NCBI GenBank assembly: GCA_024653965.1
Contig: JANLGW010000043.1
Location: 1-64,000 of the forward strand
Direction: 5' to 3'
From: Rhodospirillales bacterium
GTDB lineage: Bacteria > Pseudomonadota > Alphaproteobacteria > Rhodospirillales > Magnetovibrionaceae
DNA length: 64,000 nucleotides
Part shown: piece after piece, positions 11,838 to 52,293 of the stretch
Numbering within the stretch: position 1 is the first letter of the stretch
Layout: every line of letters begins with the position of its first letter
The notes under the pieces: model-generated
Databases searched by the model: none
What the model was told of the DNA's origin: nothing
Seen by the model: the letters and a program-made list of their open reading frames with translations, nothing else
Translations under genes and position numbers: made by a program

Positions 11838-12092
11838 TCACTCCGGATCGTTTTCGACGATTTCCGGTTCAAACAGCTGAACCGGCGTGGACGGCATCAC
11901 GGTGGAAATGGCGTGTTTGTAAACCAACTGCGTATGACCGTCGCGGCGCAGCAGGACCGAGAAATTATCGAACCACGTCACGATGCCCTGCAACTTGACG
12001 CCGTTGACCAAAAACACGGTCACGGGGGTCTTGTTTTTGCGAATGTAGTTGAGGAAGACGTCTTGGACGTTTTGTGATCTTTCCGAAGCCAT
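11838..12092 (-). CDS. hfq: RNA chaperone Hfq
   Basis: The 84-residue protein has the Sm1 motif ([21 protein letters not shown]) and the Sm2 motif ([11 protein letters not shown] with the YKHAIST core). Hfq forms a hexameric ring that pairs small RNAs with mRNAs. The C-terminus is short and acidic, as in many alphaproteobacteria. It heads the hfq-hflX pair and has 166 bp of non-coding DNA upstream, which probably carries its own promoter. It is a natural partner for the small-RNA candidates near 27.6 kb. Confidence 0.97.
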
Positions 12093-27031: not shown

Positions 27032-27442
27032 TTAGCTCATGTCAATAGACACATAGCCTTGCTCGATGGCATAACGCAGTGCCTCAAAAGCTATTTTAGC
27101 TTCTTCATAGGCTTCGCGGTGGGTGCGCAATTGACTGACTTGGTTTTGATCCAGCGGTTCGCCCTTGTCGACGCCGGCGGCGTGAAACGCGGCTTCCAAA
27201 TAATGGGCGCGCAGCCGAGCGATGGCTACGGCAAACGCTAAAACGGTATCTTTTTCCAAAACCGGAATGCGGGCGTGGATGATCTCCCGGTTGGCGATCC
27301 GAATACCCTGCTCGATTTCATTGAGAAACCGCATCATCTTTTTGTAATCGTCGCTGTGTGTGTCTTGAACGCTCATCAAAGGGGCTCCTGGATCGTCGTG
27401 GGCGTGGATCGCTTCCAAGCCCATAGAAGACAAGATACGCAT
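27032..27442 (-). CDS. Hypothetical helical protein
   Basis: The 136-residue protein starts at an ATG preceded by GAGG. It is soluble and largely alpha-helical, with a heptad-like central part (YKKMMRFLNEIEQG, then VLAFAVAIARLRAHYLEAAF). No enzyme motif is visible. Its start is 36 bp from the first CRP-type palindrome of the small-RNA locus, so it might share that control. I do not recognise the family. Confidence 0.6.
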   Translation of the reverse strand: MRILSSMGLEAIHAHDDPGAPLMSVQDTHSDDYKKMMRFLNEIEQGIRIANREIIHARIPVLEKDTVLAFAVAIARLRAHYLEAAFHAAGVDKGEPLDQNQVSQLRTHREAYEEAKIAFEALRYAIEQGYVSIDMS

Positions 27443-27478
27443 TCTAGCCTCTACAACACTACATTTTTTTTGCCCCCC

Positions 27479-27494
27479 TGTGATGGTCGTCACA
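27479..27494 (+). promoter_or_regulatory. CRP/FNR-family palindrome, copy 1
   Basis: TGTGA-TGGTCG-TCACA matches the CRP half-site consensus TGTGA-N6-TCACA exactly. Its centre is about 41 bp upstream of the conserved start of small-RNA candidate 1, the class II activator position, and 44 bp from the divergent gene start at 27442. As RNA it could also fold as a hairpin, so operator function is inferred. Confidence 0.55.
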
Positions 27495-27526
27495 GCCCGA
27501 TGCGTAGAGGCATGACAAAGTCATGG

Positions 27527-27604
27527 TGTGGAGAGGCCATCGGCCTTTCCCTTCCCTCAAGAGCACAAACTCAACCGGCTGTCTTCGCGACAGCCGGTTT
27601 TTTT
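27527..27604 (+). ncRNA. Small-RNA candidate, copy 1
   Basis: The predicted transcript has a 9-bp hairpin (27530-27538 with 27542-27550, loop ATC), then a single-stranded pyrimidine-rich region, then an intrinsic terminator (11-bp stem 27573-27583 with 27589-27599, and seven T). The 29 nucleotides at 27545-27573 are identical in the second copy. The C/U-rich CUUUCCCUUCCCUC could pair with Shine-Dalgarno sequences in mRNAs. The 5' end is estimated from where the copies become strongly similar. No protein frame fits. Confidence 0.65.
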
Positions 27605-27631
27605 CTATGTTTTTTGCATTTTTTATTAGGG

Positions 27632-27647
27632 TGTGATGGCCGTCACA
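27632..27647 (+). promoter_or_regulatory. CRP/FNR-family palindrome, copy 2
   Basis: TGTGA-TGGCCG-TCACA is again an exact TGTGA-N6-TCACA site and differs from copy 1 by one base in the spacer. It lies 153 bp from copy 1 and at the same distance from its own small-RNA candidate. Repetition of both the site and the spacing supports a regulatory or RNA-structural role. Confidence 0.55.
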
Positions 27648-27680
27648 GCATGCCGCGCAAAAGCATGAGACCTTAAGGAC

Positions 27681-27758
27681 TGTGGAGAGGCCATTGGTCT
27701 TTCCCTTCCCTCAAGAGCACAAACTCAGCCGGTCGTCCCTAGGATGACCGGCTTTTTC
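27681..27758 (+). ncRNA. Small-RNA candidate, copy 2
   Basis: This is the homologue of the RNA at 27527. The first hairpin (27684-27692 with 27696-27704, loop ATT) keeps pairing by a G-C to G-U change. The 29 nt at 27699-27727 are identical. The terminator stem (27728-27738 with 27742-27752) has a different sequence but still pairs over 11 bp and ends in a T-run. Changes that preserve pairing favour a real structured RNA. It converges with tRNA-Pro. Confidence 0.65.
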
Positions 27759-27803
27759 TTTGGAAAGGGTACGAGGGGCGGCTGCGGCGGTGGTATTGCG
27801 CAC

Positions 27804-27838: not shown

Positions 27839-27915
<77 letters not shown>

Positions 27916-52140: not shown

Positions 52141-52293
52141 GGTCTTTATCCTATCCAAAAGCTGCCTTACATCCGGATAACGCGTGATGGTGCAGTTTTA
52201 ATCCTCCCTACGCCTTTGATTTTGCATCTTTGTCGGCTGGACGCATATGATGGGCGTCACATGAGAAGGATGAATGATAACGCATTGAAATTA

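Follow-up and report, generated by a model that had tools for sequence, protein, structure and literature searches.

The window analysed here, the whole stretch of 64,000 nucleotides, contains two adjacent copies of a predicted small regulatory RNA (sRNA), uncatalogued till now, each lying behind a CRP-like site. The locus is flanked by cutA and small conserved genes on one side and by tRNA-Pro(GGG), merR, ihfA, and fabH on the other. The tRNA gene (27842-27915, minus strand) converges on the RNAs and is a syntenic marker at many homologous loci. At the gathering level, Rfam models recovered only this tRNA-Pro in the window and assigned the RNA units to no family. The sequence-only reading had also placed an hfq gene in the window, and a profile search confirms it at 11838-12092 on the minus strand (PF17209, E 1.6e-32); its product is the presumed chaperone of the sRNAs.

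Alignment supports the earlier description of the units as homologous and head to tail, with 100 of the 131 aligned positions identical. Both TGTGA-N6-TCACA palindromes reported by that reading are present and perfect (like all features of the units, on the plus strand): TGTGATGGTCGTCACA at 27479-27494 in copy 1 (centre 27486.5) and TGTGATGGCCGTCACA at 27632-27647 in copy 2 (centre 27639.5). They are the only perfect sites of this form in the window. The 29-nt strand said to be identical in the copies is so (27545-27573 and 27699-27727). Its core, CTTTCCCTTCCCTC, occurs at two places in the window, both in the units, where 0.04 chance matches would be expected per window with up to one mismatch. 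The predicted RNAs span about 79 nt in copy 1 (27528-27606, with the 5' end placed to within 2 nt from the promoter geometry described below) and about 80 nt in copy 2 (27681-27760).

The predicted folds of the two RNAs have the same anatomy. A 5' hairpin, GGAGAGGCC-AUC-GGCCUUUCC at 27530-27550 in copy 1 and GGAGAGGCC-AUU-GGUCUUUCC at 27684-27704 in copy 2, engages the 5' half of the pyrimidine tract in pairing, while the 10-nt strand CUUCCCUCAA stays free. This anti-Shine-Dalgarno-like strand, the presumed target-pairing seed, lies at 27551-27560 in copy 1, where its unpaired probability is about 1, and at 27705-27714 in copy 2, where it is likewise unpaired in the fold. It is followed in both copies by a mini-hairpin, GAG-CACAAA-CUC, and then by an intrinsic terminator with a U tail: 27573-27606 in copy 1 (11-bp stem at 27573-27599) and 27727-27760 in copy 2 (12-bp stem at 27727-27753). 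Folding agrees with two further claims of the first description, that the hairpin keeps its pairing in both copies despite a G-C to G-U change and that the terminator stems, different in sequence, remain paired (11 and 12 pairs). The only terminator-like sites found on the plus strand are these two. Both full RNAs fold better than all of 200 shuffled sequences (z of -6.1 for copy 1 and -4.7 for copy 2). A rho-independent terminator ending in a U tail on both copies, together with an hfq gene in the genome, is what one would look for in Hfq-dependent sRNAs. A coding role for copy 1 was also considered and is unlikely, because a start codon is absent except at the extreme 5' end.

To place these RNAs among related bacteria, we searched genomes with the DNA itself, with exact patterns, and with a covariance model. 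DNA similarity yielded hits for 22 of the 60 relatives' genomes searched, with a few of the short hits corresponding to the palindrome alone, and the exact pattern search gave matches in Magnetovibrio, including M. blakemorei MV-1. The covariance model, built from 21 sequences, covers the hairpin and core and excludes promoter and terminator. It matches 65 of 317 genomes from the order, spread over 31 of 115 genera. In a class-wide draw of 385 genomes, it gave, besides the source genome, a single marginal match (E 1e-3). Within the source genome, its only strong matches are the two copies, and a search for relatives on plasmids and phages found none. The exposed strand is almost invariant across homologues (UCCCUUCCCUCAAGAGCACAAACU), and the hairpin covaries: 26 cells have both sides altered in a compensatory way, against 9.9 in shuffles. 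A larger set of 61 distinct sequences gave 49 compensatory cells against 20.3 in shuffles, with far lower values in slid controls; the smaller test is the cleaner one because the alignment of 61 sequences was fitted to the structure. The sequence-only reading had named a lack of conservation of hairpin and strand in relatives as the observation that would speak against it, and this comparison came out in favour of an RNA.

The promoter region was then compared across the 67 distinct homologous loci with enough upstream sequence. The CRP palindrome is present with at most one mismatch in 61 of them and is perfect in 50, whereas only 1 of 640 control windows taken farther upstream contains one at the same tolerance. 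The site lies outside the search model, so its presence at these loci is independent evidence. When loci are aligned on the site, a -10-like hexamer appears at offsets 37-42, with A at position 38 in 55 of 61 and T at position 42 in 57 of 61. A start about 7 nt past the hexamer puts the palindrome centre at -41.5, which is the class II arrangement, and this geometry would place the starts in the window near 27528 and 27681. The layout is thus that of a class II sRNA promoter, with TGTGA-N6-TCACA near -41.5 from a predicted start, a -10 box, and no -35 box, which is not expected in this class. The window's own copies have weak -10 boxes, a point that we count against the preferred reading given below: CAAAGT at 27516-27521 in copy 1 and GACCTT at 27669-27674 in copy 2, where A2 and T6 are kept and the register is that of the 61 loci. 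The earlier distance of 41 bp to the TGTGG motif is right when measured between the centre of the palindrome and the probable start, and wrong when measured from the palindrome edge. With homologues in 65 of 317 genomes, a covarying hairpin, and a CRP site at 61 of 67 loci, the proposal that these are duplicated functional RNAs with CRP-type sites in front is supported.

Some homologues depart from the common layout. The one at L024 (1380-1520, minus strand, G030) has the same core and a longer 5' part; about 120 bp separate its perfect CRP site from the core downstream, and the A2/T6 register of the -10 hexamer is still kept. L030 (G021) and L023 (G036) both carry the core UUCCCUCAAGAGCA with a terminator; the CRP site is absent at the usual distance in the former, and in the latter TGTGATTCCAGTCACA lies much nearer, with about 50 bp between it and the core downstream.

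The palindrome of copy 1 also lies about 100 bp upstream of a divergent gene (27038-27376, minus strand), which it might serve instead, with the downstream sequence being a structured repeat devoid of function. We regard this as very improbable: the register of the palindrome is fixed towards the RNA, the neighbour was not found at many loci where the palindrome persists, the second palindrome sits between the two RNAs, and the RNA hairpin covaries.

Which protein binds the site is a separate question. The TGTGA half-sites are the CRP consensus, whereas FNR sites have TTGAT, and in E. coli CRP an R-E-x-x-x-R pattern reads TGTGA. The genome encodes a CRP homologue, L146 (contig C32), that retains GELAAIDGLPRSAS and an E. 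coli-like RETVAR recognition helix, and hence the R-E-x-x-x-R pattern. It matches E. coli CRP structures, and its best NCBIfam model is CRP, though with a score under the model cut-off. This homologue strengthens the assignment of the sites to CRP. Four CRP/FNR helix-turn-helix proteins exceed the Pfam cut-off in the genome (they were detected with PF13545 and missed by PF00325), including a second CRP-like protein, L147, with REDVAM in its recognition helix. It is therefore conceivable that another regulator of this type (FNR, Dnr, or the second CRP-like protein) binds the site, leaving the account of the RNA otherwise unchanged; given the half-sites and the recognition pattern of L146, we consider this unlikely. 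Since the register of the CRP site is conserved and the genome encodes L146 and seven class III cyclase domains, control of the RNAs by cAMP is likely.

Perfect TGTGAYNNNNRTCACA sites number 8 in the whole 3 Mb genome, including the two described here, and the reversed control pattern gives none. The six further sites in G000 (L159-L164) adjoin varied genes, which by eye resemble hemerythrin-like, flagellar-like, and molybdate-type ABC transporter-like ORFs; this set looks like a small CRP regulon. The window itself also has a CRP-type site with one mismatch, TATGATGGGCGTCACA, at 52246-52261.

The order cutA ... sRNA, tRNA-Pro, merR, ihfA, fabH is kept at many loci, both in the bacterial family of the source genome and elsewhere in the order, and the position of the RNA locus is apparently ancestral. 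The RNA is found as a tandem pair in five or more genomes of that family (G000, G011, G012, G013, and G016), with identities within pairs of 0.64-0.90. The tree of the copies is poorly resolved, so that the duplications are undatable and separate duplication looks the same as gene conversion. Near the sRNA locus of G011, a Rfam CRISPR direct repeat matches L010:2674-2709 with 35.4 bits, below its gathering score of 42.

Our preferred reading, to which we give a probability of roughly 0.6, is that these are trans-acting, CRP-activated, Hfq-dependent sRNAs that mask ribosome-binding sites. According to this model, cAMP-CRP would switch on transcription of both RNAs under carbon or energy limitation, the U tail would bind Hfq, and the exposed CUUCCCUC could block translation of several mRNAs by pairing with their GAGGGA-type ribosome-binding sites. 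The tandem copies share the seed and would therefore be largely redundant; they might raise dosage or supply two slightly differing promoters.

Seed searches of ribosome-binding sites gave weak, isolated candidates and no target conserved across the RNA family. Complements of the form GAGGGAAG before an ATG gave 24 listed matches in six genomes, compared with 6 for the control pattern in reverse; among the 24 are two that are the antisense of the RNAs themselves, which account for all such matches in the source genome, and no orthologues shared between the six genomes were found. Two of these perfect 8-mer complements of the seed, which are not conserved across genomes, precede genes that by eye resemble those of a cbb3 oxidase subunit (L174, G017) and nuoG (L183, G006). 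The shorter TTGAGGGA before an ATG gave 98 matches in 12 genomes versus 9 for the reversed control. Ordinary ribosome-binding sites are expected to account for much of this excess, and the bases neighbouring the matches show no extended complementarity to the RNA. Some genes recur among these matches and, named by eye, are weak leads: a STAS-like gene in G009, G013, and G017, which belong to a single genus, a likely glutamate dehydrogenase gene in two genomes, and a likely fliL in two; the STAS-like gene is the best target lead, if a weak one.

That a conserved set of mRNA targets did not emerge would also fit a real, CRP-activated RNA whose role is to titrate another sRNA, as a sponge, or to tie up a protein such as Hfq. 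A simple anti-Shine-Dalgarno seed would be shorter than the conserved stretch CCCUCAAGAGCAC, and there is a precedent in CrfA, the carbon-starvation RNA of Caulobacter, which is a sponge of the alpha-r8 RNAs (PMC12559287). CrfA, however, has a G/A-rich loop, whereas the strand exposed by the RNA described here is C/U-rich, as in the alpha-r8 repressors. A complementary sRNA was not encountered in the course of the searches described, and we hold the sponge or sequestration role to be improbable.

Masking of ribosome-binding sites by the RNAs would probably tune protein production to the carbon or energy state. More broadly, the data point to a real, order-wide, uncatalogued family of predicted sRNAs whose CRP class II promoter is strikingly conserved: a new family of a kind already known. 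It provides a defined promoter, seed, and structure in a large group, magnetotactic and related genera, in which sRNAs are poorly annotated; a transcriptome paper on M. gryphiswaldense gives one sRNA by Rfam (PMC9549626). The conserved register between CRP site and -10 box makes carbon control through cAMP directly testable.

How does the family compare with known sRNAs? The seed string has no match in the open-licence literature, and a description in subscription journals is possible. BcKCsr2 of Burkholderia (RF02883) matches below threshold (19.9 bits against a gathering score of 40), mainly over the terminator region, and this match does not recur among the homologues scanned. AbcR1 and AbcR2 of rhizobia are a tandem pair of homologous Hfq sRNAs that carry anti-Shine-Dalgarno motifs (PMC8844928), to which the tandem arrangement and the strand described here are similar; they differ in being under LysR-type control (LsrB), and the RNAs here have no Rfam match to AbcR.

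The closest likeness is to alpha-r8 (RF00519; MmgR, SisA-D), in which a weak hairpin is followed by an exposed 10-nt C/U strand, UUUCCUCCCU, that represses mRNAs with Hfq (PMC12559287). Both are alphaproteobacterial RNAs of about 80 nt with a 5' hairpin, an exposed pyrimidine strand, and a terminator, and in both the strand is followed by AAACUY and a GGCCG-rich terminator. The RNAs could thus be a diverged branch of alpha-r8 (suhB/MmgR/SisA) rather than a separate family: the elements come in the same order, AAACUU-GGGCCG precedes the terminator in several members of both, and RF00519 recurs as a match below threshold (copy 2 scores 14.9 bits, and the best homologue in relatives reaches 33.6). 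An RNA-like element at L063:1460-1580 (G039) has UUUCCUCCCUCAAGACCAAACUU before its terminator, between the UUUCCUCCCU of alpha-r8 and the CCCUCAAGAGCACAAACUU of the RNA family; it appears intermediate and may bridge the two. Against this, every tested copy scores under the gathering score of 41, unrelated loci in many genomes score equally high with RF00519, and both copies here have CUUCCCUCAA in place of the alpha-r8 10-mer. Our covariance model gave no match at E<=5 to the alpha-r8 loci searched, no CRP site appeared within 80 bp upstream of those examined, and RF00519 members above the cut-off sit elsewhere in genomes that also carry the RNA (e.g., G026 and G047). In most species, alpha-r8 adjoins a gene for N-formylglutamate amidohydrolase (PMC12559287); the neighbours here are cutA, tRNA-Pro, merR, and ihfA, and the amidohydrolase linkage is not universal in alpha-r8. 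We think it rather unlikely that the RNAs are a branch of alpha-r8: as far as anatomy goes, they are predicted to work as alpha-r8 does, yet they are not assigned there. In one genome (L045, G041, about 1430-1580), an alpha-r8 locus lies beside a repeated terminator-like unit (GGGCGAC...GGCGGCCCCGAGCCC).

The promoter invites another comparison. CRP-controlled sRNAs are known in enterobacteria, with CRP-cAMP input in Yersinia (PMC4376681), and CyaR and others likewise have a TGTGA-N6-TCACA site. Rfam detected no relation to these RNAs, and the class II geometry described here spans an alphaproteobacterial order. Alpha-r8 is linked to carbon metabolism where studied, and the CRP-type site suggests a carbon input here. 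The coexistence of two RNAs of like layout raises the question of whether their targets are shared or competed for. We tentatively suggest that order-wide, cAMP-CRP-activated class II anti-Shine-Dalgarno sRNAs might be the functional counterpart of CyaR-like RNAs in alphaproteobacteria, existing beside alpha-r8 and competing with it for overlapping ribosome-binding sites, so that the carbon state would set the balance between two families with C/U seeds.
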